From an uncultured Eubacteriales bacterium (GTDB taxonomy: Bacteria; Bacillota; Clostridia; Christensenellales; Aristaeellaceae), in NCBI GenBank assembly GCA_902793325.1, contig CADBCY010000007.1:41163-105162 (forward strand): a DNA stretch of 64,000 bases, read 5' to 3'. This document shows, one piece after another, positions 4,861 through 63,809 of the stretch. Under the pieces are notes generated by a model. The model had not been told where the DNA came from, ran no database searches, and saw only the letters and a list, made by a program, of their open reading frames with translations. The translations under genes and the position numbers were made by a program. Each line of letters starts with the position of its first letter. Within the stretch, counting starts at the first letter, position 1.

Positions 4861-6855
<1,995 letters not shown>

Positions 6856-26216: not shown

Positions 26217-27401
26217 TCATTGCTCCGTAGGCGTGCCGATGCTCCAGGTGTCGCCCGCGCCGCGGAGGTAGGCGGTGTCGGTCTTCAACAGGTCATAGGC
26301 CACCTGGTCCATCGGGCGACCCGAGGCGTCGCTCAGCGTCACGGTCTCGCCCTCGCTACTCAGGCGGAAGTTGGTGTGCAGGTACGCGGGGTCCCCGGTG
26401 CGGTCCAGCCCGGAGGCGAACACCCGCAGCGTGCCGCCGGCGGGGATCGAAACGCCCTTCGGGAAGCGCCACTTGCGCGTCAGCGCCGGGTCGTCTGACA
26501 GGTACCAGCCCGAGAGGTCCGCCGCGGAGGCTGCGTTGTTGCGAAGCACGATGTAGTCCTGGAACACGCCGCCCTCGTCCGGGTGGTACTTCGTGTTGGA
26601 CGCCACCAGCTCCGCCAGTTGCACGTCGCTGGTCCCCGACACGCGGTTCATGGCGGCGTAGTTCTCCGCCGTGTTCATCTCGCCGGGGGTGACCTCGTCG
26701 GTGACCTCCCACTTGTCGCGGTCGCGGCGGGCAAAGGCGCTGTTGGCGGGCATGGCGGGGATGTTCACGGTATCCACCGCCACCTTGGCGTCGTTGAACA
26801 GCATCAGCACGTCGCCGCCGGAGGACAGGCGGAAGGGCGCGTGCAGCTCCTCCCCCGCCGCCGAGCGCATCTCGCCGTCGGCGTACACCACGGCGCAGCC
26901 GTTCGGCTCCAGCGTCATGGCGGGGAACACGAACACGCTGCCCGCCTTGGCGTTGCGGGCCAGCATGTAGCCCTCCAGGTTCACGGCGCGGTCGGACACG
27001 TTGGCGACCTCCGCCCAGTCGGGGCTCTCGCCCTCGCTGTCCACCAGCACGCCGCCGTTGGAGGTCATGATCTCGTTGAGGCGCACCGGCCCGCTGCCGT
27101 GGATCTCCGACACCGCCGCGGACACGGGCACGTCCTGCTCCCGGTCCTGGCGCAGTTGGAAGCCGTCGGGCATCAGGTACTGGAGCACCACGCCCACGGC
27201 GATGATGACCGCGCACAGCGCCAGCAGCGGCCAGAAGCCGCCGGGCAGGAAACCGCCGGAGCGCGGCGCGGCGGGCCGCGCCGGCCTGGGCGCCGCGGGT
27301 CTCGGCGCCGGCCTGCCGGTTGGCGCCGGTCTGCCGGTTGGCGCCGGTCTGCCGGTCGGCGCCGCGCCGGGGCGGCGAACCGGCCTGTTATACTGTGTCA
27401 A
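26217..27401 (-). CDS. Membrane-anchored lamin-tail-domain protein
   Basis: 394 residues. The N-terminal cytoplasmic part is Pro/Arg-rich with three PTGRPA repeats; one membrane helix spans about 54-76. Outside are two lamin-tail (LTD) beta-sandwich domains: about 100-195 (VRLNEIMTSN, SPDWAEVANVSDRAVNLEGY) and about 250-390 (VQLAELVASNTKYHPDEG, LSGWYLSDDPALTRKWRFPKG). Bacterial LTDs are found on secreted nucleases, CotH proteins and surface proteins, probably as binding modules. The start is TTG 27401 with GGGGGAG six bases upstream. It lies in an operon with the CotH, VTC and DUF4956 genes. Confidence 0.85.
   Translation of the reverse strand: MTQYNRPVRRPGAAPTGRPAPTGRPAPTGRPAPRPAAPRPARPAAPRSGGFLPGGFWPLLALCAVIIAVGVVLQYLMPDGFQLRQDREQDVPVSAAVSEIHGSGPVRLNEIMTSNGGVLVDSEGESPDWAEVANVSDRAVNLEGYMLARNAKAGSVFVFPAMTLEPNGCAVVYADGEMRSAAGEELHAPFRLSSGGDVLMLFNDAKVAVDTVNIPAMPANSAFARRDRDKWEVTDEVTPGEMNTAENYAAMNRVSGTSDVQLAELVASNTKYHPDEGGVFQDYIVLRNNAASAADLSGWYLSDDPALTRKWRFPKGVSIPAGGTLRVFASGLDRTGDPAYLHTNFRLSSEGETVTLSDASGRPMDQVAYDLLKTDTAYLRGAGDTWSIGTPTEQ
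27304..27357 (-). repeat. Tandem 18-bp repeat encoding PTGRPA
   Basis: Three near-identical 18-base units (GGCGCCGGTCTGCCGGTT on the plus strand) encode the cytoplasmic PTGRPA repeats. The units differ at one or two bases, so copy number could vary between strains. Confidence 0.85.
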
Positions 27402-31900: not shown

Positions 31901-32029
31901 AAAGGCCAGCGCCAGCGCGACGACACACAGCGCGGCCACGGCCGCGACGGGCAGGCCGCCCCTGCGGCGCGGCGCGGGCCGCCTTGCCGGCGCGGCGTGC
32001 GCGCGATCATGCTGTGATTGTTTCAACAC
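28973..32029 (-). CDS. CotH kinase-family protein with three lamin-tail domains
   Basis: 1018 residues. In order: basic cytoplasmic tail; membrane helix or uncleaved signal (about 26-47); LTD1 (about 60-165, RISEVMSANGS); LTD2 (about 200-310, LEISEAMSDNATFF); LTD3 (about 375-475, VYITEILASSAKSDDWIEL); a chitobiase-C-like beta domain (about 510-590, YSTGDNLSVEL); and a CotH kinase domain (about 600-985) with ECGTKLHGQYSR, KVIARSKYSGSNRFD and KWRWVLFDLDWGFH. CotH proteins are atypical secreted kinases. Start GTG 32029 or TTG 32026 are both well spaced from GGAGGA. First gene of the VTC/DUF4956/LTD/CBM9 operon. Confidence 0.9.
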   Translation of the reverse strand: MLKQSQHDRAHAAPARRPAPRRRGGLPVAAVAALCVVALALAFVAQALPAGAKAQGGEGLRISEVMSANGSTRVTGDGGLPDWIEVENTSDRTVDLTGFTLMRGTRPARAFVFPGGALGPGEFAVILADGGTIAERDGVYHAPFRLPASGDTLTLLDRSGAAVDDVDVPALAKDQVYCRDVAGEWQLSAFPTPGEVNRVGDAAAAQEEQRDVVAVPGALEISEAMSDNATFFPDETGAYPDYIEIHNTTDAPVNLQGWFLSDTRSKLRRWTFPAVTLPADGYLAVHCSGVDRRGDPAHLHASFKLSSGGEEIFLTDPKGVTVSAVRLPTLEADQAWSLLETGWTRSFPPTPNQPNTHAGADAAAEEIRAQNGCGVYITEILASSAKSDDWIELYNESAAAVDLSGFGLSDNAGRPRKWQFPSGTVIQPGAYLGVVANGADTVSNGRLCTNYRLSADGGYSLTLSDTAGRVFDRLYVPTQYRDLSYGRTADARALRFFTKPTPGSANSGDTYLGRAPLPVYSHKGGLYSTGDNLSVELKVPGNCQVYYTLDYTDPDQGATLYTEPIPVSSTTVLRTRVYGEGYLPSYMDSQSYLYDVNNGDGTVFVMSLVSDPYNLTSDEAGIMVKGPNAEPKYPYGSMNKGANFWMDWEREAHIEVFNPDGTTLISQECGTKLHGQYSRAEKQKAFKVIARSKYSGSNRFDAAIFSKRPYTEYQSFLLRASSEDGNKTRMRDALMQSLAEGTSVMYQETEIGVLYIDGQYWGHYNLRERINTASICQFEGWEGDEDDLDLIKANTNVMQGSNDTMAKLLAWLKKHNPNTDEAYQVLDRAIDIQNYIEYMAVEMYVGNTDTLNVKRYRNPKKDGKWRWVLFDLDWGFHEDTNSVRRWLTPGGMGNMNRTDNSLFIACMKNDTFRDRFLTYLGQQMATTYSAESVLARIEDFYNRLKPILPEQFERWGQTKSGYNAAMKKFTDYAKSRPYRMLQFLKDCEYLKLSQAEMERYFGDAMAEVGVTYKQIKKP

Positions 32030-32088
32030 GTTGTCCTCCACGGGGCGCCTTCGTCGCGCGAACGCGCTCCCACATTCACAGGTTTCCT

Positions 32089-42227: not shown

Positions 42228-45318
<3,091 letters not shown>

Positions 45319-45328
45319 CACAAATCGC

Positions 45329-45359
45329 AAAACGCGGCGCCCGGTTTTCGGGCGCCGCG
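45329..45359 (-). terminator. Rho-independent terminator of the GH127 operon
   Basis: CGCGGCGCCCG and CGGGCGCCGCG form a perfect 11-bp stem (loop GTTTT); minus-strand TTTT at 45329-45332 follows. Confidence 0.85.
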
Positions 45360-45424
45360 TCGGCGGTCTTTCGGGGAATCTCCGCGGTTGCGGCCTTGAT
45401 CGGCGATCTGGTTCGGATGCGCGG

Positions 45425-47347
45425 CTACGCCTCCCGCACCCACACCAGCATTTCGTTCCGGCCGCGGTTGGCCCATTTGTAGTAGGGGATGAACGCGAGC
45501 CGGGCGGGTTCGCGCACCGCGGGCACGCCGGAGGTGTAGAGGTCGTCGGAGGGGAAGCCCTCGCGCAGGCCGTCGGCTTCGATCACCGCCGTGCCGCCCA
45601 GTTGGTCCCGTTCCACGCAGGTCAGCGGCGCGTCCGCGGGCAGCAGCAGCCGGTGGAGCTCCGCGCCGTTGTCCGCCTCCTCCAGGCAGTAGACCACCGG
45701 GCCGCGGGCCAGCGCCACCTTGCCCGCCGCGCTGCGCACGCTGGGATGGGCGTGCACGCGGCGGGGCGGCATGGCCATGTCCAGGACGACCTCTTCCCGC
45801 CCGAAGGGGCCCTCCACGAGCGCGTAGCCGTTCTCCACCGCCGGGGCGATTTCCCGCCCGTCCCGCAGCACGCGATACGAGCCGCACCACGCCGGGATGT
45901 GCAGCCGCAGCGCGTAATCGCCGGGGGCGAGGCGCAGCTTCACGCGGCCGTCGCGGGGATAGTCGGTCTCCATGGCGATCTCGACCGCCGCGCCGCCCAG
46001 CGTCAGCTTCACGGTGGAGTTCAGGTAGAGGTGCACCTGCAGCTCGTCCTCGCGGGCGGTATACTGGTATTCGAGGAGCGAGCACATCAGCCGCGCCAGG
46101 TTCGGCGGGCAGCAGGCGCAGCCCAGCCACGGCTGGCGCTCCGGCTCCACGTGGCGCTTGTTGGGGTCCTTCTCGTCCGCCTCGGGGAACACCGCCAGCG
46201 GGTTGACGTAGAAGAAGCGCTCCTGGTCCAGGCTCATGCCGGACAGGCACGTGTTGTAGAGCGCGCGCTCCATGGCGTCGGCGTACATGCCGTCGAGCTC
46301 GCCCTGCAGCATCCGCCTGGCCAGGAACACCAGCGCCACGGAGGCGCAGGTCTCGGCGTAGGCGGTGTCGTCGGGCAGGTCGTAGTCGAAGGTGAACGCC
46401 TCGCCCGTGTAGGTGCTGCCCACGCCGCCGGTGACGTACATGCGCCGCGCCCAGGTGTTCCGGAACTGCGCGCGACAGGCCTCCCAGAGCGCCGCGTCCC
46501 CGGTGCGCACGGCGACGTCCGCCGCGCCGCAGGCCAGGTACAGCGCGCGCACGGCATGGCCCTCCATGGTGCGCTGCGCCCGCACGGGGAGGTGTCCCTG
46601 CGCGTAGGCGCGGCCGAAGCCCGCGTTGTGGGGAAAGAACGGCTTGCCGAGCTTTTCCTGCTCGAGGTCGAAGTAGTACGGCTCCCGCCCCCGCCGGTCG
46701 ATGAACGTCCGCGCGAGGTCGAGGTAGCGGCGCTCGCCGGTGACGTCGTACAGCTTGCACAGCGCCAGCTCGATCTCCGCGTGGCCGGGATAGCCCCACA
46801 GGTTCTGCTCGGTGAAGTAGTCGCAGACGTAGTCCATGTAGCGGATCATCACGTCCAGCGCCCTGCGCTTGCCGGTGGCCTGCCAGTAGGCGACGGCGCC
46901 CTCCAGCAGGTGGCCCGCGCAGTACAGCTCGTGGCAGTCGCGCAGGTTGGTCCAGCGCCGGTCGATGCCGTTGATGATGAAGTAGGTATCCAGGTAGCCG
47001 TCGGGCAGTTGGGCCTTTTCCATCAGGCCGATCACCTCGTCCGCGCGCGCTTCCAGCTCGGGGTCGGGCTTGGCCATCAGCTTGTAGGCCAGCGCCTCCA
47101 GCCACTTGCCGAAGTCGCTGTCCTGGAACACCCAGCCGTAGAAGTCGCCCTTTGCCTCGCCCGCGGCGATGCGGAAGTTCTCCACGCAGTGCGACGGCTC
47201 GGCGCCCGGCACCTGGTCGGTGAGCATCCGCCACTGGTACGCGAGCATGTGGTCGTACACGCCTTCGACGACCCCGCCGAGCGCCCCGCCCGCGATCCTG
47301 CCGTCACTGGGCAGCAGGCTGCGCGCGGGGTGGGTTAAGCTGTTCAT
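45425..47347 (-). CDS. GH127 beta-L-arabinofuranosidase (DUF1680)
   Basis: 640 residues. GH127 enzymes release beta-L-arabinofuranose, using a Zn-bound cysteine as nucleophile. The metal/nucleophile motif is clear as WLGCACCPPNLARLM near residue 410, and the (alpha/alpha)6 barrel blocks LPDGYLDTYFI, DCHELYCAGHLLEGAVAYWQATGKRRALDV and NLWGYPGHAEIELALCKLYDVTGE are present. No signal peptide: cytoplasmic. ATG 47347 follows GGAGGTG. It lies 45 bases after the GH31 gene in the importer operon. Related members also act on other furanosides, so the linkage is not fixed by sequence alone. Confidence 0.93.
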   Translation of the reverse strand: MNSLTHPARSLLPSDGRIAGGALGGVVEGVYDHMLAYQWRMLTDQVPGAEPSHCVENFRIAAGEAKGDFYGWVFQDSDFGKWLEALAYKLMAKPDPELEARADEVIGLMEKAQLPDGYLDTYFIINGIDRRWTNLRDCHELYCAGHLLEGAVAYWQATGKRRALDVMIRYMDYVCDYFTEQNLWGYPGHAEIELALCKLYDVTGERRYLDLARTFIDRRGREPYYFDLEQEKLGKPFFPHNAGFGRAYAQGHLPVRAQRTMEGHAVRALYLACGAADVAVRTGDAALWEACRAQFRNTWARRMYVTGGVGSTYTGEAFTFDYDLPDDTAYAETCASVALVFLARRMLQGELDGMYADAMERALYNTCLSGMSLDQERFFYVNPLAVFPEADEKDPNKRHVEPERQPWLGCACCPPNLARLMCSLLEYQYTAREDELQVHLYLNSTVKLTLGGAAVEIAMETDYPRDGRVKLRLAPGDYALRLHIPAWCGSYRVLRDGREIAPAVENGYALVEGPFGREEVVLDMAMPPRRVHAHPSVRSAAGKVALARGPVVYCLEEADNGAELHRLLLPADAPLTCVERDQLGGTAVIEADGLREGFPSDDLYTSGVPAVREPARLAFIPYYKWANRGRNEMLVWVREA

Positions 47348-47392
47348 GTGTGCACCTCCAGTCGGGGGAAATTCGGGAAACGGAAGCCGGCG

Positions 47393-49618
47393 TCAGGCGT
47401 TGTGCACGATCAGCTTGCAGGGCCTGGCGGCGTCGGTCGCCACGCTGACCTCGCCGTTTTTGACCGTCAGCACATAGGTCGCGGCGGTCCGGCCCTTCAG
47501 GTCGGGCACCCTGACGGTGAGCGTGCCGTCCTCGGGCTGGAACACGTGCAGCTCCAGGCCGTCGGTGTAGTCGTAGTCGGGCCGCTCCTCGTTCGCGCCC
47601 ATGGGGATGACGCTGTTGGGCCGAACCATCAGCGGCAGGGACAGGTAGCCGTGCCGCTCCCGCCGCCAGGTGTCGCCGTCCGCGACCTCGCCGGTCAAAA
47701 GGTTCGTCCAGCGGCCCTCGGGCAGGTAGTAGTCCACGTGGCCGTCGGCGTGCATCACCGGCGCCACCAGCAGGTTCGCGCCGAGCATGTACTGGGTGTC
47801 GCAGGTCTCGCACGCCACGCTGTCCGGGAACTCCAGCAGCATCGGGCGCATGACGGGAATGCCCTTCTCGTGGGCCTCCGCCGCCGCGGCGTAGACGTAG
47901 GGCATCAGGCGGTTCTTGAGGCGGGTGAACTGCCTGACCACGTCGCTGGCCTCGTCGTCGAACAGCCACGGCACGCGATAGCTGGACGAGCCGTGCAGGC
48001 GGCTGTGGCTGGACAGCAGGCCGAACGCGGCCCAGCGCTTGTACACGTCGGCGGTGGCGGTCTGCTCGAAGCCGGCGATGTCGTGGCTCCAGAAGCAGAA
48101 GCCGGAGTGCGCGATGCTCAGGCCCGAGCGCAGCGTCTCGGCCATGCTCATGAAGGTCGCGCTGCTGTCGCCGTTCCAGTGCACGGGGAACTGCTGCCCG
48201 CCCACCGTGGCGCTGCGGGCGAACACCACCGCGTCGCCCTTCCCGCGGCACGCCTCGATGGTCTCGAACACGAACCTGTTGTAGAGGTAGGTGTACCAGT
48301 TGTGCATGCGCAGCGGGTCGCTGCCGTCGAAGTAACGGATGCCCCGCACCGGGATGCGCTCGCCGAAGTCGGTCTTGAAGGCGTCCACGCCCATCCGCAT
48401 CAGCCTGCGCAGCTTGGCGGCGTACCACTCCCGCGCCGCGGGGTTGGTCACGTCCAGGATCGCCATGCCGGGCTGCCACAGGTCGGTCTGCCACACGTCG
48501 CCGTTTTCCTTGTGGAGGAAATAGCCCTTCTCCACGCCCTCGTCGAACATGCAGCTCTCCTGGGCGATGTAGGGGTTGAGCCAGCAGCACACGTGCAGCC
48601 CGCGGTCGTGCAGCTTCTTCAGAAGGCCCTCGGGGTCCGGGAACACGTCGGGGTCCCACTCCAGGTCGGTGAGGTGGTTCTCCTTCATCCAGAAGCAGTC
48701 GAAGTGGAACACGCTCAGCGGGATGTCCCGCTGCGCCATGCCGTCGATGAAGGAGGTGACGGTCTGCTCGTCGTAGCTGGTGGTGAAGGAGGTGGACAGC
48801 CACAGCCCAAAGCTCCAGGCCGGGGGCAGCGCCGGCCGCCCGGTGAGCGCCGTGTACTTCTCCAGGATGCCCTTGGGCGTTTCGCCGTAGATGACGTCGT
48901 AGGTCAGCTTCTGGCCCTCCAGGCTGAACTGCACCCGCTCCACCTTCTCCGAGGCCACCTCGAAGCTGACGTCGCCGGAGTCCTCCACCAGCACGCCGTA
49001 ACCGCGGTTGGTCATGTAGAAGGGCACGTTCTTGTAGGCCAGCTCGCTGGCGGTGCCGCCGTCGCCGTTCCAGATGTTCACCACCTGGCCGTTCTTGACG
49101 TAAGCGGTGAAGCGCTCGCCCAGGCCGTACACCCGCTCCCCCACGTCCAGGTTCAGCGAGTCGATCATGTAGTGCTTGCCCGTGGGCTTGCAGTAGGCGT
49201 GAGCCATGGCGTGGTATTCGGATTCGGTGAGCAGCCGCCCGTCGCCGGTGTAGGTGACGCGCCAGCCCTGCCTGGCCTTGCTGACGGTGGCCACGGCGCG
49301 GCCGCTGCGGAAGGTGAATTCCGTCTCCGTCTCGGTGATGACGGGCTTCACCGGGGCCTCGTGCAGCTCGAAGTGCGGGCAGCGGTCCACGACGCCCCGC
49401 CAGTGCTCCACGGTGACGCGGATCACGTCCTCCATGGGCGCGGTGAAGGTGACGGTGAGCGCCGGGTGGTTCATCACGCCGCCGCGCCCTTCCCCCACCG
49501 GCACCGAGGGGCAGATGATCTTCAGCGCGTCGTCCGTGACGGTGGCGGCGTAGCTCTGGATGGCAAAGTGCAGGTCGTACTCCGGCCGGTTCAGCCAGTA
49601 ACCGTTTGTGAATTTCAT
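47393..49618 (-). CDS. yicI: GH31 alpha-xylosidase (YicI-like)
   Basis: 741 residues. YicI-type GH31 enzymes remove alpha-1,6-linked xylose from isoprimeverose and xyloglucan oligosaccharides. The nucleophile Asp lies in AFKTDFGERIP (about 416) and the acid/base Asp in HWNGDSSATF; the substrate-loop segment PAWSFGLWLSTSFTTSYDEQTV and N-terminal beta-sandwich fit the xylosidase subgroup better than glucosidases. No signal peptide. GGAGG lies before ATG 49618. It sits directly after the two permease genes. Confidence 0.93.
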   Translation of the reverse strand: MKFTNGYWLNRPEYDLHFAIQSYAATVTDDALKIICPSVPVGEGRGGVMNHPALTVTFTAPMEDVIRVTVEHWRGVVDRCPHFELHEAPVKPVITETETEFTFRSGRAVATVSKARQGWRVTYTGDGRLLTESEYHAMAHAYCKPTGKHYMIDSLNLDVGERVYGLGERFTAYVKNGQVVNIWNGDGGTASELAYKNVPFYMTNRGYGVLVEDSGDVSFEVASEKVERVQFSLEGQKLTYDVIYGETPKGILEKYTALTGRPALPPAWSFGLWLSTSFTTSYDEQTVTSFIDGMAQRDIPLSVFHFDCFWMKENHLTDLEWDPDVFPDPEGLLKKLHDRGLHVCCWLNPYIAQESCMFDEGVEKGYFLHKENGDVWQTDLWQPGMAILDVTNPAAREWYAAKLRRLMRMGVDAFKTDFGERIPVRGIRYFDGSDPLRMHNWYTYLYNRFVFETIEACRGKGDAVVFARSATVGGQQFPVHWNGDSSATFMSMAETLRSGLSIAHSGFCFWSHDIAGFEQTATADVYKRWAAFGLLSSHSRLHGSSSYRVPWLFDDEASDVVRQFTRLKNRLMPYVYAAAAEAHEKGIPVMRPMLLEFPDSVACETCDTQYMLGANLLVAPVMHADGHVDYYLPEGRWTNLLTGEVADGDTWRRERHGYLSLPLMVRPNSVIPMGANEERPDYDYTDGLELHVFQPEDGTLTVRVPDLKGRTAATYVLTVKNGEVSVATDAARPCKLIVHNA

Positions 49619-49664: not shown

Positions 49665-50513
49665 CTATCCCTTGATCGCGCCGGCGACGACGCCGTCCAC
49701 GATGTAGCGCTGCAGGAACACGAACACGATGACCGAGGGCAGGATCGCCAGCACCATGGCGGCCAGCGCGTAGTGCCACTTGGTGTTCAGGGAGCCGACG
49801 AAGTTGTAGGCCGCCAGCACCAGCGTCTTTGACGACGGCGAGCTGTTGACCATCAGCAGCGGCAGCAGGAAGTCGTTCCAGATCCACATCACGTCCAGCA
49901 CCACCACGGTGGCCGTCACCGTCTTCAGCAGCGGGAAGATGATCAGCGCGTAGGTCTGGAACGTGGAGGCGGAGTCGATCATGGCGCTCTCGTCGATCTC
50001 CGAGGGGATCGACTTCATGAAGTTGAAGTAGATGAACGTCGCCATGGGGATGCCGAAGCCCCAGTACTGGATGCCCAGGCCCCAGGCGGTGCCGTTCAGG
50101 TGGATGATGTTCATGAACTTGAGCAGCGTGATCATGATGGTCTGGAAGGGAATGAGCATGGGGGTGATGATGAAGGTGTGCAGCGCCTTCGTCACCCGGG
50201 TGTCCCGGCGGTCGAGGATGTAGGCCGCCATCGAAGAGAACACCACGATGCCCGCGATGCCGATGACGGTGATGACCACGTTGTTCCAGAACAGGCGGAA
50301 GTACTCCATCTTGTCGATGACGTAGCCATAGTTTGCCCACTCCAGATGGGAGGGCAGCGCCAGCACGTTGGTAAGGATCTCCTTGAAGGGCTTCAGCGAG
50401 TTGTCCACCATCAGGAACACGGGATAGATATACAGGCACGCCAGCAGCACGACGATCACCAGGAACGCGCCGTGGGCCGCCTTTTTCCTTCGTTCAACCT
50501 GCGCCTGCATCAC
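49665..50513 (-). CDS. Carbohydrate ABC transporter permease (MalG-type)
   Basis: 282 residues with six membrane helices. The EAA loop ESAMIDSASTFQTYALIIFPLLKT marks the contact with the ATPase. CUT1 family, MalG/UgpE-like. GTG 50513 overlaps the stop of the upstream permease; ATG 50510 one codon on is equally possible, and GGAGG serves both. No ATPase gene is nearby; a shared MsmX-type ATPase encoded elsewhere is usual for CUT1 systems. Confidence 0.94.
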   Translation of the reverse strand: MMQAQVERRKKAAHGAFLVIVVLLACLYIYPVFLMVDNSLKPFKEILTNVLALPSHLEWANYGYVIDKMEYFRLFWNNVVITVIGIAGIVVFSSMAAYILDRRDTRVTKALHTFIITPMLIPFQTIMITLLKFMNIIHLNGTAWGLGIQYWGFGIPMATFIYFNFMKSIPSEIDESAMIDSASTFQTYALIIFPLLKTVTATVVVLDVMWIWNDFLLPLLMVNSSPSSKTLVLAAYNFVGSLNTKWHYALAAMVLAILPSVIVFVFLQRYIVDGVVAGAIKG

Positions 50514-51409
50514 TGCTTCACCTCCCCGCGCTCAAACACCTTCAGCACCACCTGGGTGAGCACCAGCACGATCACGAAGAACACGATGGCCTTCGCGGAA
50601 CCCAGGCCGTAGTTGTTGTTCTGGAACGCCTCGCGGTAGATGTCCAGCGTGGCGGAGTAGGTCGCGCCGCCGGGCCCGCCCTTGGTGAGGGCGAGTATGA
50701 TGTCGAACACCTTCAGCGAGTTGGTCAGTGACATGAACACGCAGGTAGTAATGGACGGCCCCAGCAGGGGCAGCACCACCCGGAAGAAGCGCTGGCGGCT
50801 GTTGGCGCCGTCGATGCTGGCCGCCTCGAGCACTTCCGAGGGGATGGCCTGCAGGCCCGCGATGTACAGCACGATGTAAAAGCCCAGCGACTGCCACACG
50901 CCCACCAGCACCAGCGAGTAGAAGGCCAGGTTCGCGTCGCCCAGCCAACTGAGGTTCCACACGCCCCAGCCGGTGATTTCGTAGAGCTTTTCAAAGCCCT
51001 GCGTGAAGATGAACTTCCAGATGAAGCCCACGATGGTCATGGACATGATGTAGGGCAGGAAGAACATGCCCCGGAGGAAGTTCGCCAGGCGGAATTTCCG
51101 GGTGAGCGCCACGGCCAGCGCCAGCGCCAGCACGTTGCTGAACACGATGAACAGCGCCGAGAACCTGAAGGTGAACAGCAGCGCGTTCACGAATTCCGGG
51201 CTGCCGGAGGAGAAGATGGTCCTGAAATTGGCCGGCCCGATGAACACGGGGTTGCGGGATATGCCGTTCCACTCCGTCAGGGAATAGTAGCCGCTCATGA
51301 CGAACGGGATGTAGATGGCGATGAGCACCATCACCACCGCGGGCAGCGTGAACAGCAGCGTGTCGCGCAGCGCCTTGCGGTTCATGGGGCTCATGGAGGG
51401 CCTTTGCAT
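50510..51409 (-). CDS. Carbohydrate ABC transporter permease (MalF-type)
   Basis: 299 residues with six membrane helices, LPAVVMVLIAIYIPFVMSGY being the first. The EAA loop is EAASIDGANSRQRFFRVVLPLLGPS. Pairs with the MalG-type permease, whose start overlaps its stop. It follows the binding-protein gene after a 13-bp stem-loop that may lower permease expression relative to the binding protein. Confidence 0.94.
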   Translation of the reverse strand: MQRPSMSPMNRKALRDTLLFTLPAVVMVLIAIYIPFVMSGYYSLTEWNGISRNPVFIGPANFRTIFSSGSPEFVNALLFTFRFSALFIVFSNVLALALAVALTRKFRLANFLRGMFFLPYIMSMTIVGFIWKFIFTQGFEKLYEITGWGVWNLSWLGDANLAFYSLVLVGVWQSLGFYIVLYIAGLQAIPSEVLEAASIDGANSRQRFFRVVLPLLGPSITTCVFMSLTNSLKVFDIILALTKGGPGGATYSATLDIYREAFQNNNYGLGSAKAIVFFVIVLVLTQVVLKVFERGEVKQ

Positions 51410-51446
51410 GAAGCTCCCCCTTCCTTGAGTCTGACACAGTTGAAAT

Positions 51447-51477
51447 CAGCCGTGCCGTATCGCGTACGGCACGGCTG
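51447..51477 (-). other. Stem-loop between binding-protein and permease genes
   Basis: CAGCCGTGCCGTA and TACGGCACGGCTG form a perfect 13-bp stem (loop TCGCG). The minus strand continues ATTTCAAC, so termination would be partial. Such elements often protect binding-protein mRNA and reduce downstream expression. Confidence 0.7.
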
Positions 51478-51511
51478 AGAGTTGTTCGTTCGCCCGTCCG
51501 GCGTCCGGGGA

Positions 51512-52756
51512 TCAGCCCTTCGCGCCGTCCAGCTCCACCCACTTGGCCTCGATCTGCGCGCAGCACTCGTCCTTGTCGATGCTGCCGCCGATGTAGGCCT
51601 GGATGGCTTCGCCCATGGCCTGGTTGAAGCTGTCGGAGGAGTAGCAGATGCTCAGCGCGCCGGCGCCGTCGGCCGCAGCCAGCTCAGCGCCCTGCTTGAT
51701 GATCTGCATGTCGGCCACCTTCGCGCCGGAGATCGGGGGGATGACGCCGGCCACGTCGCAGAACCAGTTCTGGCCGTACTCGCTGGTGTACCACCAGTTC
51801 ACGAAGTCCAGCACGGCGTCCAGGTTGGCGGAATCCTTGTTGATGCGCAGCGCCTGGTCGGAGCCGGCGATGATCTGGCTCTGGGCCGGGTCGTCGGTCA
51901 CGGGATAGCCCGCGAAGCCGATCTGCAGCGCGTCGTCGATGGAGGTCACGTCGGCCTCGACCCAGGGGCCCTGGCCGGTCACCATGGCGGCCTTGCCGGT
52001 GCCGAACGCGGACACCTCGCCCGCCAGGTCGGTCTCCAGGGGCTTGTTGTCGCCGTACTTCACGCACAGATCAATGAAGCGGAAGAAGTTGTCATACAGC
52101 ACGGGATAGTCCTTGAAGTGGGCCTCGCCGGCCTGGAACGCGGCGACCAGCGCGGCGGGATCGTCGGTGGCGGCGTCCAGGAAGTGCTGCATCACGTGCT
52201 TGTACACCCACCACTCCGCAAAGCCGGTGGTCACGGGCTGGTAGCCCGCGGCGCTGATCTTCTCGCAGGCGGCCTCGAACTCGTCCAGGGTCTTGGGGAA
52301 CTCGATGCCCACCTCGTCGAAGATGGCCTTGTTGTACAGCATGCCGAAGTAATTGCCCTTCAGCGCGAAGCCGTGGATCTCACCGTCGCCATAGGTCATC
52401 ATGGCGGACACGGCCGGGTCCATCGCCTCGGCGGCGGGGGTGCCAGCGAAGTTGTAGGAGTACTCGGCGTAGTCGGCGATCTCCTTGCCGGAGGTGGTGC
52501 CGAAGATGTCGGGGGTCATGCCGGCGTTGATGCGGGTCTTCAGCAGGGTGGGATAGTCGTTCTGGGTGGTCTCGTAGTTGATGGTCACGTTGGGCGCGAC
52601 TTCCTTATAGGCGGCGATCAGCTCGTTCACGGCGTCCGCGTACTCGGGGCTGGGGATGAACATGTTGATCTCGACCGGTTCCTCGGCCATGGCGGGCACG
52701 ACGCACAGCGTCAGCACCACGGCGACGGCCAGCAGCATGGAAAGCAGCTTCTTCAT
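51512..52756 (-). CDS. Extracellular sugar-binding protein (CUT1 ABC transporter)
   Basis: 414 residues. Signal peptide MKKLLSMLLAVAVVLTLCVV with likely cleavage PAMA-EE; there is no lipobox Cys, unlike most Bacillota binding proteins. SBP_bac_1 fold features: INMFIPSPEYADAVNELIAAYKEVAPNVTINY at the start, TPDIFGTTSGKEIADYAE and FGTGKAAMVTGQGPWV. Aromatic residues (WW in AEWWVYKH and FVNWWYTSEYGQNW) suit oligosaccharide stacking. First gene of the importer operon, divergent from the YesM-type kinase gene. Confidence 0.93.
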   Translation of the reverse strand: MKKLLSMLLAVAVVLTLCVVPAMAEEPVEINMFIPSPEYADAVNELIAAYKEVAPNVTINYETTQNDYPTLLKTRINAGMTPDIFGTTSGKEIADYAEYSYNFAGTPAAEAMDPAVSAMMTYGDGEIHGFALKGNYFGMLYNKAIFDEVGIEFPKTLDEFEAACEKISAAGYQPVTTGFAEWWVYKHVMQHFLDAATDDPAALVAAFQAGEAHFKDYPVLYDNFFRFIDLCVKYGDNKPLETDLAGEVSAFGTGKAAMVTGQGPWVEADVTSIDDALQIGFAGYPVTDDPAQSQIIAGSDQALRINKDSANLDAVLDFVNWWYTSEYGQNWFCDVAGVIPPISGAKVADMQIIKQGAELAAADGAGALSICYSSDSFNQAMGEAIQAYIGGSIDKDECCAQIEAKWVELDGAKG

Positions 52757-57925: not shown

Positions 57926-57954
57926 TTGTCACGAAACCGTTTCCCGTGTATAAT
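57926..57954 (+). promoter_or_regulatory. SigA-type promoter for the binding protein/HD-GYP operon
   Basis: TTGTCA (57926-57931), 17-bp spacer, TATAAT (57949-57954), 50 bases before ATG 58005 and preceded by an A-rich stretch. Confidence 0.78.
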
Positions 57955-58004: not shown

Positions 58005-58937
58005 ATGGCGATAAGCATTTCCCTGCGCAGGGGCGTCTGCGCGGCGCTGGCGCTGTTGACGCTGCTCCTGCCCTGTGCCTTTGCGGAGGAACAGGAGGAG
58101 CCGCTGTACGTGGAAAACGAGTGGAACTACGTGGATCAGTCCATGGACGCCACGCAGGGCATCCCCGAGGACGCCGTGGGCGTGATGGAGCGGATCCAGC
58201 GCACGGGCGTGCTGCGGGTGGCCACCGAGCCCTACTTCCCCCCGCAGGAATTCATCGACCCCAACCTCACCGGCCAGGAGAGCTACGTGGGCGCGGACAT
58301 GGAGATGGCGCGGCTGATCGCCACGCGCATGGGCGTGGCGCTGGAAATCGTGCCCATGGAGTTCACGGAGGTGCTGGACGCCGTGGCGGACGGGACCTGT
58401 GACCTCGCCATCTCGGGCCTGGCCTTCACCCCCGCGCGCGCGGCCATGGTGGAGCTCTCCAAGGGCTACCACTACACCGAGAACAACGCGGGCAGCGGGC
58501 TGCTGATCCGCGCCTCGGACGCGGAGAAGATCACCTCCGCGGAGGATCTGAACGGCCTGAACCTGGTGGCCCAGAGCGGGTCGCTGCAGGAATCCATCGT
58601 CGCCGAGCGCATCCGCAACTACCACGAATTCAAGCGCATGTCCTCGATCCTGGAATGCTATACCGCAGTGCAGCGGGGCCGCGCGGACGCCGCGGCGGTG
58701 GACATCGAGAACGCCCTGTCCTACATCGAGAACAACCCGGACTGCGGCCTGGCGCTGGTTCCCGGCGTGCGCATGATCCAGGAGGAGCAGTACGACGGCG
58801 ACCGCGTGGCCGCGAAGAAGGGCGAGCTGCAGTTGATTTACTTCGTCAACAGCGTCATCGACGAGCTGCTGGCTTCGAACCAGTACGCACAGTGGTTTGA
58901 GGAATACCAGGCCTACGCCGCAAAGCTCGGCATGTAG
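58005..58937 (+). CDS. Periplasmic/extracellular binding protein, amino-acid type (SBP_bac_3)
   Basis: 310 residues. Signal peptide ISISLRRGVCAALALLTLLL with cleavage near AFA-EE and no lipobox. The SBP_bac_3 domain (about 60-305) shows RTGVLRVATEPYFPPQEFID, VGADMEMARLIATRMG, DLAISGLAFTPARAAMVELSKGYHY, LNGLNLVAQSGSLQESIV and RADAAAVDIENALSYIE, the amino-acid/opine binding family. No permease or ATPase gene is near. It is instead first in an operon with a large HD-GYP receptor, so a sensory rather than transport role is likely. Confidence 0.9.
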   Translation: MAISISLRRGVCAALALLTLLLPCAFAEEQEEPLYVENEWNYVDQSMDATQGIPEDAVGVMERIQRTGVLRVATEPYFPPQEFIDPNLTGQESYVGADMEMARLIATRMGVALEIVPMEFTEVLDAVADGTCDLAISGLAFTPARAAMVELSKGYHYTENNAGSGLLIRASDAEKITSAEDLNGLNLVAQSGSLQESIVAERIRNYHEFKRMSSILECYTAVQRGRADAAAVDIENALSYIENNPDCGLALVPGVRMIQEEQYDGDRVAAKKGELQLIYFVNSVIDELLASNQYAQWFEEYQAYAAKLGM

Positions 58938-58988
58938 CGCCTTTCCCGCTATAAAGGCACCCACCCAGAACCCGAGGGGGCTATCGGA

Positions 58989-61900
58989 ATGAAAAAGTGG
59001 AAGATTTACCAGATCAGCGGTTTTATCATACTCTGCGTGCTGCTCAATTCCCTGGGGCAGAACCTCGCCAGCCGCCTGAGCCTCCCGCTGTGGCTGGACG
59101 CCCTGGGCACCGTGCTCAGCGCCTACGTCGGCGGGTCGGTCTGCGGCGCACTCGTGGGCATCGCCGGAAACCTGATCGAATACATCGTCCACCACTCCAC
59201 GTGGATGTACAGCCTGACCAGCATCGTGCTGGCCGTCATCGTGGGCATGTCCGCCCGGCGCAAGGCGCTGTCCACGTTCTTCGGCACCATGACGGTCGGC
59301 GCCATGGCCGCCATCGCCGCCATCATCGTGTCCGTGCCGCTGGACATCTTCTTCCACGCAGGCAGCACGGGCAACCTGTGGGGCGACGGCGTGGCCACGT
59401 TCTACCATGAGCGCGGCTTCCCCACCCTGCTCAGCGTGCTGGTCGGCCAGTTCTACCTTGAATTCATCGACAAGCAGCTGACGATGATGCTGACGGCGCT
59501 GGTGCTGCTGATCGCGTCGAAGCTGCGCGGCGGCAAGGACGACGCGGACAAGCCGAAGGTCGAGCCCGAGAAGGCGCTGGCCCTCGCGCTGGCCGTGATG
59601 CTCGGCTGCGCCGCGCCGATGGCCGCGCGCGCCCGCGCGGAAGCGGTCCCGCAGGAGCGCATCGACTACAACGGCTACGTGCAGAGCGTATACAGCAGCG
59701 GCAACGGCCTGCCCTGCGGCGAGGCCAACGACATCGTGCAGACCAGCGACGGCATCCTGTGGATCGGCACCTACGCCGGCCTGTACCGCTATAACGGCCA
59801 GGAATTCCGCCGCATGGACACCTTCGACTCCGTGCGCAACGTCAACTGCCTGTACGTGGACGACGAGGGCCGGCTCTGGATCGGCACCAACGACAACGGC
59901 CTCTCCATCGCCATCAACGAGCACATCGTCAACGTCATCGACCAGGCGGGCGGCCTGCCCGCAGACTCGGTGCGCTCCGTCATCCGCGGCACGGACGGCT
60001 ACTACTACGTCGGCACCTCCGGCAGCATGCAGGTCTTTACGCTGAACAACGGCCTGAAGGTCGCCAACACGCTGCGCGAGATCAACTCCGCGGAGAAGAG
60101 CGCCGCGGACAAGCTCGGCAACGTCGCGGCCATCGCCTCCGACGGCCGGCTCTTCCTGTTGCGGAAGGGGCAGATCCTCAGCTCGCTGCGGCTGACGCGC
60201 GGCACGGAGATCTTCAGGAGCTGCTGCTTCGATCCCTACGGCCGGCTGCTGGTGGGCAGCTCCGGCGGGCACATTTACATCTATGACATCTCCTCCGACG
60301 GCTTCATACTGCTGAACGTGCTCACCACCAAGGGCCTGAACAACCTGAAGGATCTGTGCTACCTGAACAGCGGCGAGCTGTTCATCGCCGCCGACGACGG
60401 CGTGGCCTACTGGGACTCCAAGAGCGTGTACCACATCGTCAACACCAACGCCTTCAACAATTCCATCGACAACATGCTCCAGGACTACCAGGGCAACCTG
60501 TGGTTCACGTCCTCCCGCCTGGGCCTGCTGCGCATGGCGCCGTCCTCGTTCAAGGACATCTACAGCACCGTCGGCATGAAGGGCCACGTGGTGAACGCCG
60601 TGACGAAGTGGCAGAGCTGCTACTACTTCGGCACGGACAACGGCCTGGACATCGTGGACGAGAGCTGCAGACGGCAGATCCGCAACAACCTGACCGAAGA
60701 GCTCAGCGGCGCGCGCATCCGCTGCATCGCCGTGGACTCCCGCAACTGCCTGTGGCTGTGCACCTACGGCCAGGGCGTCTGGGAGGTGGAGCCGGACGGC
60801 ACCGAGCACATCTACACCGGCGACAACGGCGGCTTCGGCAACCGCTCCCGCGTATCCATCGAGCTGCGGGACGGCACCGTCGTGGCGGGCGGCAACGGCG
60901 GGCTCAGCTTCATCCGCGACCACGCCGTCACGCGCACGCTGGGCCTGGCGGACGGCCTGACCAACGACACGATCCTCACGCTCTCCGAGATGCCCGACGG
61001 CAAGCTGCTGGCGGGCACGAACGGCGGCGGCATCGCCGTGATCGAGGACGGCGCGATCACGCGCATGCTCACCAAGCAGGACGGCCTGAGCTCCGGCGTC
61101 ATACTGCGCACCGTGCCGGATGACGCGGGCAAGGGCGTGTTCATCGTCACCAGCAACGGGCTGTGCTACATGGACGCCGAGGGCGTTGTCCGCACGCTCG
61201 ACAACTTCCCCTACTTCAACAACTACGACATCTGGGTCAAGGACAACGGCGAGCTGTTCGTGATGAGCAGCGCGGGCATCTACGTAGTGGACCGCGAGGA
61301 GCTGCTCTCCGGCCTGGATCCCCTCCCCTTCGACCTGCTGGACGCCCGCCGCGGCCTGGACAGCGCGCTGACCGCCAACTCCTGGACCTATTACGACGGC
61401 AGGGGCGATCTGTTCCTGGCCTGCGACAGCGGGTCGTTCGTCATCGACACCGACGAGTACGCCTCCGGCGCGCAGACCTACCGCATGATGATCTCCTCCG
61501 TGCAGCTGGACGGCGTGCCCCAGCGGGTGGAGCGCTCCAGCCCCATCGAGGTGAGCCGCGGCGTGGCGCGCATCGAGCTGTTCCCCGAGATCCTGAACTA
61601 CACCATCGAGGACCCCAACGTGGGCTACTTCCTGGAGGGCTTCGACGCCAACTGGACCATCATGCCCCGCAGCAGCCTGAGCTCCATCGTGTACACCAAC
61701 CTGCCCAACGGCAGCTACACGCTGCGCCTGGCGGTGTTTGACAACGCGCGCGCCAACATCCTGGAGGAGCGCAGCTACGCGCTCACCAAGCGGAAGGAGA
61801 TCCAGGACAACCAGTGGTTCGTGCTCTACGTGGCGCTGGTGCCCATGCTCACCGTGGCGTGGCTCACCTGGTTCGTGATGCGCAGGCACATCCAGCGCAC

Positions 61901-62549
61901 GCTGGAAAGGCAGGAGCAGGAGCTGGCCGTGGTTCGCCACCAGGTGGAGATGGGCAACCAGACCATCCTGGCCATCGCCAAGGCCGTGGACGCCAAGGAC
62001 GTGCGCACGAGCCAGCACTCGTTCCGCGTGTCGCAGTACTCGGTGATGATCGGCAAGGAGCTGGGCTTCAGCGACGAACAGTGCGAGAACCTGCGCAAGG
62101 CAGCGCTGATGCACGACATCGGCAAGATCGGCATTCCCGACAGCATCCTCAACAAGCCCTCGCGGCTGACCGACGAGGAGTACGCGATCATGAAGTCCCA
62201 CGTCACGCGCGGCGCGGAGATCCTGAAGGGCTTCACGCTGATCGACCACGTGGTCGAGGGCGCACTGCACCACCACGAGCGCTACGACGGCCGCGGCTAT
62301 CCCTCCGGCATGAAGGGCGAGGAGATCCCGCTGTACGGCAGGATCATCGGCGTGGCCGACGCCTTCGACGCCATGACCGCCAACCGCGTCTACCGCCAGC
62401 AGATGGACTTCGAATACGTGTTCAACGAGATGCGCAACGGCTGCGGCACGCAGTTCGATCCCCAGTGCGTGGATATCCTGCTGAAGCTGATCGAAGACGG
62501 CAAGATCAACCTCAACGAGCTGTACGCCCAGAAGAACGACAAGGATTGA
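58989..62549 (+). CDS. ECF-S-like / beta-propeller / HD-GYP transmembrane receptor
   Basis: 1186 residues. Residues 1-180 form a five-to-six-helix membrane domain like ECF S-components (LPLWLDALGTVLSAYVGGSVCGALVG). Then a signal-peptide-like helix (about 196-217, LALALAVMLGCAAPMA), a large outside beta-propeller of two-component-regulator type repeats (about 225-790; SDGILWIGTYAGLYRYNG, EGRLWIGTNDNGLS), a Y_Y_Y domain (about 830-895, SSIVYTNLPNGSYTLRLAVFD), a membrane helix (about 940-962), a short coiled coil and a C-terminal HD-GYP domain (about 1005-1180). The HD-GYP motifs are intact: MHDIGKIGIP near 1040 and HHHERYDGRGYP near 1094, typical of c-di-GMP phosphodiesterases. The flanking genes encode two binding proteins. 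Confidence 0.92.
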   Translation: MKKWKIYQISGFIILCVLLNSLGQNLASRLSLPLWLDALGTVLSAYVGGSVCGALVGIAGNLIEYIVHHSTWMYSLTSIVLAVIVGMSARRKALSTFFGTMTVGAMAAIAAIIVSVPLDIFFHAGSTGNLWGDGVATFYHERGFPTLLSVLVGQFYLEFIDKQLTMMLTALVLLIASKLRGGKDDADKPKVEPEKALALALAVMLGCAAPMAARARAEAVPQERIDYNGYVQSVYSSGNGLPCGEANDIVQTSDGILWIGTYAGLYRYNGQEFRRMDTFDSVRNVNCLYVDDEGRLWIGTNDNGLSIAINEHIVNVIDQAGGLPADSVRSVIRGTDGYYYVGTSGSMQVFTLNNGLKVANTLREINSAEKSAADKLGNVAAIASDGRLFLLRKGQILSSLRLTRGTEIFRSCCFDPYGRLLVGSSGGHIYIYDISSDGFILLNVLTTKGLNNLKDLCYLNSGELFIAADDGVAYWDSKSVYHIVNTNAFNNSIDNMLQDYQGNLWFTSSRLGLLRMAPSSFKDIYSTVGMKGHVVNAVTKWQSCYYFGTDNGLDIVDESCRRQIRNNLTEELSGARIRCIAVDSRNCLWLCTYGQGVWEVEPDGTEHIYTGDNGGFGNRSRVSIELRDGTVVAGGNGGLSFIRDHAVTRTLGLADGLTNDTILTLSEMPDGKLLAGTNGGGIAVIEDGAITRMLTKQDGLSSGVILRTVPDDAGKGVFIVTSNGLCYMDAEGVVRTLDNFPYFNNYDIWVKDNGELFVMSSAGIYVVDREELLSGLDPLPFDLLDARRGLDSALTANSWTYYDGRGDLFLACDSGSFVIDTDEYASGAQTYRMMISSVQLDGVPQRVERSSPIEVSRGVARIELFPEILNYTIEDPNVGYFLEGFDANWTIMPRSSLSSIVYTNLPNGSYTLRLAVFDNARANILEERSYALTKRKEIQDNQWFVLYVALVPMLTVAWLTWFVMRRHIQRTLERQEQELAVVRHQVEMGNQTILAIAKAVDAKDVRTSQHSFRVSQYSVMIGKELGFSDEQCENLRKAALMHDIGKIGIPDSILNKPSRLTDEEYAIMKSHVTRGAEILKGFTLIDHVVEGALHHHERYDGRGYPSGMKGEEIPLYGRIIGVADAFDAMTANRVYRQQMDFEYVFNEMRNGCGTQFDPQCVDILLKLIEDGKINLNELYAQKNDKD

Positions 62550-62565
62550 CGGGAGGGAGCAAGTC

Positions 62566-63759
62566 ATGAAACGGATCTATCTCACGGCCCTTGCCTCCTG
62601 CCTGGCCGTGGTGCTGCTCGTCTGGGTCGCCTGCGCCGGCTGGAAACCCCAGCGGGAGCCGGAAGTGCTGAAGGTGGGCTTCATCTACGAAAACGACGAG
62701 AGCAGCCCCGACACGTACAACTTCGGCCTGGCCGAGGAGGCGCTGCGCCAGGAATGGGGCGACGGCATACAGATCCTGGCCAAGAGCAACGTGCTGGAGA
62801 CGGAGACCGAGGAACCGCTGCGCGAGCTGGTGCGCCGCGGCTGCCGCGTGGTCTTCCTGAACAGCTACAGCGACAGCGCCTTCCGGGTGGCCGCGGAATT
62901 CCCGGACGTCCAGTTCTGCCAGGTCTCCAGCGAGACCACGCGGGACCTGACGCTGCCGGCGAACTGCCATACCTTCAACGGCGAGGTCTACCAGGGCCGC
63001 TACGTGAGCGGCATCGCCGCGGGCATGAAGCTGCGCGCGCTGCTGGACGAGGGGGAGATCACCGCCGACCAGGCGCAGGTGGGCTTCGTGGGCGCCTATC
63101 CCACGGCCGGCACGCTGTCCGACAGCGCGGCGTTCCTGCTGGGCGTGCGCTCCGCGGCGCCGGAGGCCACGCTGCGGCTGCGGTGCGCGAAAGCCTGGGG
63201 CAACTACGGCGCGGAGAAGGCCTGCGCCGACAGCCTGATCGAGGAAGGCTGCATCGTCATCTCCCAGAATACCAGCACCATCGCCCCGGCGGTGGCCTGC
63301 GAGGAGGCGTCCGCCGCCGGCAAGCGGGTGTTCCACGTGGGCTTCAACGAGAGCCTGCTGAACGTCGCGCCCGCCACCGCCCTCATCAGCATGCGCGTCA
63401 ACTGGCTCCCCTACGTGACCGGCGCGGTGGCGGCGGTGGCCGAGGGCAAGCCCATCGAGAAGGGCGTGAAGGGCAGGGTCCACGGCAACGACATGAGCGC
63501 GGGCTTCGACCAGGACTGGATCCAGATGCTGGAGCTGAACAAGCAGATCGCCGCGGAGGGCACCGAGGAGGCGCTGGCGAGCGCCGTCGAAGGCTTCCGC
63601 AAGGGCCGCATCCAGGTGTTCAAGGGCGACTACACCGGCGTGAACCCGACCGACCCGTCCGACACCTGCGACCTGAACCAGGGCTACCAGGAGAACCGCG
63701 ACAGCTCGCTGCCCACGTTCCGGTATATCCTGGACGGCGTGATGGCGCTGGAATCGTAG
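62566..63759 (+). CDS. BMP-family (PnrA/Med-like) ligand-binding protein
   Basis: 397 residues. The N-terminal hydrophobic segment (YLTALASCLAVVLLVWVACAG) is a signal or anchor; VAC could be a poor lipobox. The BMP domain (about 33-350) has VLKVGFIYENDESSPDTYNFGLAEEAL, VFLNSYSDSAFRVAAEFPDVQFCQVSS, NGEVYQGRYVSGIAAGMKL and VGFVGAYPTAGTLSDSAAFLLGVRS. Family members bind purine nucleosides or related ligands. It starts 16 bases after the HD-GYP gene with a GGGAGG site. No BMP-type transporter genes are in view before the terminator, again suggesting sensing. Confidence 0.9.
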   Translation: MKRIYLTALASCLAVVLLVWVACAGWKPQREPEVLKVGFIYENDESSPDTYNFGLAEEALRQEWGDGIQILAKSNVLETETEEPLRELVRRGCRVVFLNSYSDSAFRVAAEFPDVQFCQVSSETTRDLTLPANCHTFNGEVYQGRYVSGIAAGMKLRALLDEGEITADQAQVGFVGAYPTAGTLSDSAAFLLGVRSAAPEATLRLRCAKAWGNYGAEKACADSLIEEGCIVISQNTSTIAPAVACEEASAAGKRVFHVGFNESLLNVAPATALISMRVNWLPYVTGAVAAVAEGKPIEKGVKGRVHGNDMSAGFDQDWIQMLELNKQIAAEGTEEALASAVEGFRKGRIQVFKGDYTGVNPTDPSDTCDLNQGYQENRDSSLPTFRYILDGVMALES

Positions 63760-63772
63760 GGACACCATAAAG

Positions 63773-63809
63773 CGCGCCGGGGGAGGCAATGCCTCCCCCG
63801 GCGCGTTTT
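63773..63809 (+). terminator. Rho-independent terminator of the HD-GYP operon
   Basis: CGCGCCGGGGGAGGC and GCCTCCCCCGGCGCG form a perfect 15-bp stem with an AAT loop, followed by TTTT. Confidence 0.92.

Follow-up and report, generated by a model that had tools for sequence, protein, structure and literature searches.

What is the function of an operon that encodes two solute-binding proteins and, between them, a large membrane protein ending in a phosphodiesterase domain, with no ATP-binding cassette (ABC) permease or ATPase gene of its own? The question is raised by three genes in a stretch of 64,000 nucleotides (hereafter the window; contig CADBCY010000007.1, positions 41,163 to 105,162, of assembly GCA_902793325.1), which belongs to the 3.23-Mb, 67-contig genome of an uncultured Eubacteriales bacterium of the family Aristaeellaceae. 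A preliminary description of this DNA had read the central gene as a giant receptor joining an energy-coupling factor (ECF) S-component-like membrane domain, a beta-propeller, a Y_Y_Y domain and an HD-GYP domain, flanked by an SBP_bac_3 protein and a BMP-family protein. Three open reading frames (ORFs) on the plus strand, with the corresponding Pfam domains, bear out the operon and its order (Table 1), and Pfam and NCBIfam matches confirm the domain order of the central protein. Its product, however, is probably not a single chain: a cleavage motif conserved at the join suggests that the "giant receptor" is a precursor, split into an S-component and a propeller-HD-GYP protein.

Table 1. Positions of the operon, its signals and the domains of the central protein within the window.
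Feature	Position	Strand	Basis or remark
Promoter-like site TTGTCA-17-TATAAT	57926-57954	+	sigma-70-like consensus scan, 11/12; consensus match alone
SBP_bac_3 gene	58005-58937	+	ORF, 310 aa
Receptor/precursor gene	58989-62549	+	ORF, 1186 aa: S-component/internal signal peptide/propeller/Y_Y_Y/transmembrane helix 8/HD-GYP
ECF S-component-like membrane domain, residues 1-178	58989-59522	+	NCBIfam ECF_S_CD3073 E 1.3e-18
Internal signal peptide, residues 195-217	59571-59639	+	predicted signal peptidase I cut after Ala217 (ARA|EAV), between 59639 and 59640; cleavage inferred
Beta-propeller region, extracytoplasmic, residues 225-830 (limits approximate)	59661-61478	+	Pfam Reg_prop E 1.8e-22
Y_Y_Y domain, residues 879-920	61623-61748	+	Pfam E 2.6e-7
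Transmembrane helix 8, residues 943-964, towards cytoplasmic output	61815-61880	+	read from sequence; cleavage pattern 2/74
HD-GYP phosphodiesterase domain, residues 998-1159	61980-62465	+	Pfam HD_5 E 3.6e-41
BMP-family (PnrA/AtzT-like) binding-protein gene	62566-63759	+	ORF, 397 aa
Terminator-like inverted repeat, 15 pairs	63773-63805	+	tail TTTTGTCC read directly on the plus strand

Relatives of the central protein were collected in a scan of GTDB genomes, which confirmed 211 of them; the best 80 of the 211 have best segments 54-66% identical, and most of these 80 align from residue 1 to about 1180. Among their record titles are uncultured Clostridiales, Blautia, Lachnospiraceae and Butyrivibrio; a ruminant is given as host in many of them, and many of the compared sequences come from metagenome bins. 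The alignment used below (A4) holds the window's receptor and 73 of the 80 loci, leaving out four at contig ends (L057, L075, L085 and L107), two with interrupted frames (L084 and L101) and one with an unsettled start (L079).

At the output end, HD-GYP domains are characterized by an HD and an HHExxDGxGYP motif with metal ligands. The domain is intact, as had been claimed, since all the motif residues followed (H1010, H1042, D1043, K1046, H1071, H1095, H1096, E1097, D1100, G1101, G1103, Y1104, P1105, D1124 and D1127) are kept in each of the 74 receptors. Its closest solved chains are 5z7c ("3'3'-cGAMP-specific phosphodiesterase 3", E 1.6e-45) and 4mcw ("metal dependent phosphohydrolase", E 3e-44). 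The propeller is related to the propeller histidine-kinase chains 4a2l (E 1.4e-20), 3v9f and 3va6, and a Pfam scan of the receptor gave no HisKA, HATPase or receiver match. The window's genome (3.2 Mb) contains 64 GGDEF matches, so that a cyclic di-GMP (c-di-GMP) network is present for the receptor to feed into, and no PilZ match.

The evidence for a split product lies at the join. Mean pairwise identity falls to 23% in residues 179-224, the lowest of the regions compared (S-component 49%, propeller 67%, HD-GYP 74%), yet all 74 receptors have a strong hydrophobic core there, and 48 of them a strict AxA. To score this site we used a pattern (a small or beta-branched residue, any residue, Ala, and then a polar residue within two) and shuffles of the same tails, a test that replaced weight-matrix scoring. 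The site was present in 72 of 74 receptors (40.2 expected; the highest of 300 shuffles gave 51) and in 24 of 25 from the window's own family (15.2 expected), where the join-locating pattern missed 8 of the 33 receptors. Adding 35 receptors to the 74 gave 104 of 109 (59.7 expected; highest of 1000 shuffles 74), a set in which some genomes are repeated; the identity-filtered counts, which contain no repeats, were 74/78 below 80% mutual identity (42.6 expected), 36/39 below 75% (22.0 expected) and 22/24 below 70% (13.5 expected), with none of 1000 shuffles as high in any of the three. The same pattern occurs in 41 of 49 signal peptides of the SBP_bac_3 proteins, and it is near chance in other helices of the receptor (6/72 in transmembrane helix 1, 11/74 in helix 3, and 2/74 each in helices 5 and 8). 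It is likewise at chance at the N-terminus of the BMP proteins (10 of 73 homologues; 8.7 expected) and at the equivalent helix of a sister family that joins S-components to HD-GYP domains (1 of 19).

Because the motif is kept in 104 of 109 receptors although the region around it is only 23% identical, we infer that selection probably acts on the site and that the precursor is probably cleaved. The preliminary description had also proposed that a membrane protein was fused here to a secreted propeller with the signal peptide kept as a helix; the second part of this proposal is probably wrong, since it is the cleavage motif itself that is conserved. Five Peptidase_S26 matches were found in the window's genome. 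An unfused counterpart also exists (L193, 987 residues), with propeller, Y_Y_Y and HD-GYP behind a signal-like N-terminus. A candidate for a separate S-component gene, L221 (G421:C7), was rejected, because we read it as a fragment that runs on into a partial propeller frame.

As for the input domain, its likeness to ECF S-components was borne out as homology. Residues 14-174 match positions 5-166 of the 174-position NCBIfam model ECF_S_CD3073 (NF045596), with a score of 67 bits, below the equivalog cut-off of 180. Matches below the Pfam cut-offs were obtained with 5TM-5TMR_LYT (E 0.012) and ECF-ribofla_trS (E 0.29). The N-terminal domain is also matched, with E-values down to 1e-25, by roughly 200-residue proteins from other genomes of the phylum. 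We aligned nine receptors with S-components from 19 of the 24 loci that carry the domain outside propeller receptors (alignment A3; L134, L136, L141, L146 and L156 were left out, the S-component of L156 being fused to another protein). The CD3073 model matches all 28 rows, and 19 of the 28 give a PF07694-like membrane-domain match with E ≤0.1 (for the window E 0.0011, 19.0 bits against a cut-off of 24.6). The A3 profile matches the PDB chains 5d0y ("conserved hypothetical membrane protein", E 5.8e-6) and 5d3m ("S-component for folate", E 5.1e-5), whereas a single-sequence PDB search with the N-terminus gave no match. Judged by these profile matches, the kinship of the receptor N-terminus with CD3073-type ECF S-components is genuine.

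The genomic setting of the domain differs between the two groups. Outside propeller receptors these S-components are mostly accompanied by an EcfT gene (17 of 24 loci) and an ABC ATPase gene (18 of 24), whereas the window operon contains neither EcfT nor EcfA, the single CbiQ-type (EcfT-type) match of the genome lying on another contig. A nucleoside phosphorylase gene stands directly upstream in 5 of these 24 loci, with two more weak matches, and the four such genes checked by Pfam were all PNP_UDP_1. The pocket-like residues (W35, D37, G40, T41, N61, G125, T127, G128, D161 and K162) are largely common to the S-components outside receptors; the receptors keep W35, D37, G40, T41 and N61, and nearly all have G125-x-TGN-x-WG. 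In helix 1, position 18 is small in 18 of 19 S-components outside receptors and in 13 of 74 receptors, and position 16 in 15 of 19 and 3 of 74, respectively. This loss agrees with the loss of AXXXA in helix 1 that is reported in PMC11109136 for receptors with the S-component fold.

The sister family (L186-L188 and L203-L219) has about 720 residues and consists of a CD3073-like S-component, another ectodomain, a HAMP-like linker and an HD-GYP domain; ectodomain and linker were read from the sequence, Pfam naming the HD domain alone. S-components thus seem to have been recruited to HD-GYP domains more than once. At one locus (L188:3331-9747), the S-component/HD-GYP gene is directly followed by a gene for a propeller hybrid histidine kinase of 1404 residues.

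Turning to the binding proteins, the SBP_bac_3 protein (Pfam E 1.1e-22) carries a Sec-type signal peptide, and its residues 34-60 form an N-terminal extension that is conserved. Among 52 distinct sequences, R145 is kept in 100% and D228 in 98%. An Arg and an Asp hold the amino-acid backbone in SBP_bac_3 proteins, and the amino-acid-like ligand proposed earlier is compatible with what is conserved, no more. The extension is more conserved than the domain itself (74% against 67% mean column identity; consensus YxENeWNyVdgSMDvsxGIPE) and is a possible docking element. The window's genome contains 17 SBP_bac_3 and 7 Bmp matches, counting those of the window itself; for the paralogues in the genome, longest-ORF calling gave shadow frames and was replaced. 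Absence of a lipobox was considered as a sign of a signalling SBP and rejected, since a lipobox is also missing from most of the other SBP_bac_3 proteins seen in the genome. Two further frames of this genome deserve mention: L180 (G000:C7:170091-172103) has SBP_bac_3 and GGDEF matches in an apparent single frame of 728 residues and appears to be a binding protein fused to a diguanylate cyclase, and L174 (G000:C7:1997-3088) is a 791-residue frame with two SBP_bac_3 matches.

The BMP-family protein (Pfam Bmp E 6e-20) is probably held in the membrane by an uncut N-terminal helix. Its closest solved relatives, 3s99 and AtzT, have been reported with adenine and guanine, the guanine site of AtzT comprising Tyr45, Glu165 and Trp194 (PMC6834077). 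At the columns of these residues and of Asn218, 107 BMP relatives show Y in 104, E in 105, W in 106 and H in 103, so the family keeps the first three residues of AtzT and has His in place of Asn218. The window's BMP has D49, G182, W211 and N235 at the same columns; it lacks the Tyr and the Glu and keeps two of the four AtzT residues (Trp and Asn). Of 82 highly conserved columns it differs at 11, and five of these lie at or close to the AtzT-like pocket, although the number of departures alone is not unique to the window, as the complete-looking relative L044 departs at 13 conserved columns. Of the nucleoside-like ligand proposed earlier, what stands is that a purine- or nucleoside-like ligand fits the pocket of the family; because the pocket columns of the window's own BMP have changed, its ligand may differ or be lost, and a purine ligand for this particular protein was accordingly weakened as a candidate.

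Are the three genes a regular association? When residues 1-637 of the receptor were used as query, matches were found in 50 of 200 genomes of the same family. Apart from the window's own genome, 31 genomes contain, at 33 places in all, matches above 680 bits that start within residues 1-13; the ten same-genus genomes among the matches listed are included. Among 297 genomes of the order such matches above 680 bits are confined to the same family, and 398 genomes of the phylum gave two further ones, both within the same class. The 33 loci of this same-family set overlap with the GTDB set (best 80 of 211 loci). Partial matches were found in 621 plasmid records, none of them spanning 80% of the receptor.

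In the GTDB set, the BMP gene follows the receptor gene in 76 of 76 assessable loci (in the other four the contig stops within the receptor; for L101 the receptor end was placed by hand at 5542), and 61 of the 76 show a 4-nt overlap between the two genes. In the window's family, too, BMP follows the receptor in 32 of 32 assessable loci out of 33, one contig ending; 30 were counted by script, and L241 and L236 were added from a separate check. The SBP_bac_3 gene lies upstream of the receptor in all 33 loci of the family but in 28 of 77 assessable GTDB-set loci, being absent from 49, a distribution that takes two changes on the tree; a profile search within 2.5 kb revealed no SBP_bac_3 in the loci scored as lacking it. 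Since BMP is constant and SBP_bac_3 is not, receptor and BMP are the core and SBP_bac_3 is an add-on of a lineage. The three-gene order of the preliminary description is thus conserved for the receptor-BMP pair and not, across the wider set, for SBP_bac_3. Neither a BMP nor an SBP match was found at L191-L193, three propeller loci (9-10 kb each) that lack an S-component.

The view of the binding proteins as orphans, lacking ABC genes, was upheld. Among the first outer upstream genes ABC_tran matched 3 of 69, and the families listed (25 of 83 upstream, 25 of 87 downstream) include no ABC permease, while single non-ABC transporters and SBP_bac_5 genes do occur. These outer neighbours (sets A1 and A2, 69 of 77 upstream and 61 of 71 downstream) were called as longest ORFs, some of which may be shadow frames; as a functional clue they were discarded as too varied, GGDEF occurring in 5 of 69 upstream and 5 of 61 downstream. 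Eight closely spaced downstream genes were scanned: one was adenosine-deaminase-like, overlapping the BMP stop codon by 4 nt (L190:8467-10616), one PfkB and one GGDEF, the others being unrelated. In the window itself, no ABC genes lie between 55526 and the operon, where acyl-CoA synthetase-like and regulator-like genes are found. Three findings had been named beforehand as ones that would speak against the proposal, namely ABC permeases as regular neighbours, an unconserved gene order and lost HD-GYP metal ligands; all three were looked for, and the outcomes did not refute it, the gene order being judged on the receptor-BMP pair.

Of the one promoter and one terminator that had been said to enclose the operon, the corresponding promoter-like match (11/12) and 15-pair repeat are both there. 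Sigma-70-like sites number 3 against 1.0 in shuffles, and a second 11/12 site on the minus strand (57896-57868) could be the promoter of a divergent gene. Terminator-like sites as a class are not above chance (2 found against 2.9 in shuffles), and the scan itself placed the repeat at 63773-63805 on the minus strand. An Rfam scan of the window gave no match.

How, then, might the operon work? We consider it rather probable that it is a surface nutrient sensor that lowers a cyclic-dinucleotide messenger, with the precursor cut at the join and the binding proteins docking on the propeller. The 1186-residue chain would be inserted with a six-helix S-component, helix 7 as internal signal peptide, propeller and Y_Y_Y outside, helix 8, and HD-GYP in the cytoplasm. 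Signal peptidase I would most likely cut after Ala217 and so deliver two partners in equal amounts, namely a seven-helix S-component that is probably no longer able to work with the ECF motor, and a propeller-HD-GYP receptor that spans the membrane once. Outside, BMP, anchored by its N-terminal helix, and, in the window's lineage, SBP_bac_3 may bind small ligands and dock on the propeller, while the S-component may bind a related ligand within the membrane. Docking would shift Y_Y_Y and helix 8 and thereby switch the HD-GYP dimer, so that, by analogy with NspS-MbaA, liganded binding proteins would switch the enzyme from outside. The fuller statement is more tentative, and we would put it a little short of an even chance: a precursor with an internal signal peptide would give rise to a four-part receptor that includes one or two orphan binding proteins, responds to purine-like ligands (in one lineage also to amino-acid-like ones) and controls a cyclic dinucleotide.

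A product that is never cut has to be weighed against this sensor built from a split precursor. Helix 7 would then be intact and the S-component an attached sensor in the membrane, whose ligand-driven tilt would pass through the propeller to HD-GYP. A single open frame does run across the join in all 74 rows of A4, and in the sister family the helix that connects the S-component with HD-GYP has no cleavage site, from which it follows that uncut S-component receptors probably exist; but an uncut anchor would not need the motif that is so widely kept at this poorly conserved join, and we regard an uncut product as unlikely here, if still a serious contender. Alternatively, the binding proteins could be transport proteins that lend their ligands to distant ABC permeases, the HD-GYP protein being merely co-transcribed. 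Both do come from transport families, and these have further matches in this genome. We nevertheless hold this to be quite improbable, given that the listed neighbour families contain no ABC permease, that BMP is tied to the receptor in all assessable loci, mostly by the 4-nt overlap, and that the receptor-linked SBP keeps its conserved N-terminal extension. There is an even smaller chance that the S-component half is still a transporter subunit that works with the cell's EcfT, making the system a transceptor that couples uptake and sensing: the pocket-like residues shared with S-components outside receptors and the one EcfT-type match in the genome agree with it, and the two small helix-1 positions mostly lost in receptors speak against it. 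This arrangement is compatible with cleavage, so the chances of these explanations need not add up to one.

The split-precursor sensor that we favour also has to face a number of observations that weigh against it. Signal peptidase does not cut every site of this kind, and the S-component, if cut off, needs some other link to the receptor. The pattern is frequent by chance in alanine-rich tails (40 of 74 by shuffling), and, when the polar residue is dropped, helix 3 shows xAxA in 61 of 74 against 41.7 expected. The excess at the join becomes modest below 65% identity (13/15 against 8.5; 14 of 1000 shuffles as high), and the first set alone gives 22/23, 14/15, 8/9 (4.9 expected) and 7/8 after filtering, the last two within the range of the shuffles. 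Weight-matrix scoring of the join alone was abandoned as unspecific, for its scores overlap those of BMP N-termini (mean 6.9 versus 6.5). As to EcfT, the argument for its loss draws on two columns; the strict G/A pair 14/18 is rare in both groups (3/19 and 5/74), and receptors have small residues elsewhere (position 14 in 48/74, 22 in 57/74 and 23 in 73/74). The CD3073 model also gives below-cut-off matches in 2 of 14 control genomes. The pocket of the window's BMP is altered relative to its family in three of four followed columns (Y49D, E182G and H235N). Finally, linked sbp and sensor genes are not always partners (PMC11113362).

Parts of the proposed system have known counterparts, each module being known singly. 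LtaS of Staphylococcus is likewise a membrane protein with a signal-peptidase cut after its helices, made by SpsB between Ala217 and Ser218, between helices and outer domain (PMC11898559), and is a precedent for such a site; this cut releases the outer enzyme domain, whereas both halves of the window's protein, if cut as predicted, would remain membrane-bound. Hybrid two-component systems with Reg_prop and Y_Y_Y (4a2l) have a related propeller ectodomain, but the window protein lacks their histidine kinase output. We take 4a2l to be BT4663, and these hybrids are not known to have an S-component or linked binding proteins. NspS, the binding protein of the Vibrio cholerae polyamine sensor NspS-MbaA, reportedly has no transporter of its own. 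In that sensor a c-di-GMP enzyme of the membrane is under the control of a periplasmic binding protein (PMC8967002), and here a binding-protein gene is similarly linked to a c-di-GMP-type enzyme without an ABC permease. Unlike in the window operon, the output of MbaA is GGDEF-EAL, and the relevant passages of PMC8967002 mention neither an S-component or propeller nor a second binding protein or an internal signal peptide. The 5TMR receptors with an S-component fold (Partipilo and Slotboom 2024, PMC11109136) also use this fold for sensing, and an NXR pocket motif is named for them; their output domains are described as intracellular, whereas the window receptor has an outside propeller after a signal peptide, and the terms HD-GYP and propeller are absent from the text of that paper. 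S-component-like domains sit on many outputs (PMC11109136), Reg_prop and Y_Y_Y are known on GGDEF proteins in Xanthomonas (PMC6637768), and an SBP_bac_3 domain is present in RmcA (PMC8846402). Full-text searches of open-licence papers turned up no account of an ECF S-component combined with an outside propeller and HD-GYP, nor any tie of such a receptor to BMP and SBP_bac_3 proteins; the preliminary description, too, had known of no system of this make-up.

Elsewhere in the window, the minus strand encodes two lamin-tail proteins, of which one is a CotH-kinase protein with three such matches (28973-32041) and the other lies at 26217-27401, and it also carries GH2, GH127 and GH31 genes in a row (42228-49618). 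Beside this row lie genes that read as sugar-permease-like and binding-protein-like (49665-52756).

The gene set recurs in many Clostridia, Butyrivibrio included. The system is a direct test of the idea that S-components act as receptors, and it also tests whether bacteria make receptor subunits from one precursor via signal peptidase. If the proposed cleavage is true, one gene would deliver two parts of a nutrient sensor, cut by the cell's own export peptidase.

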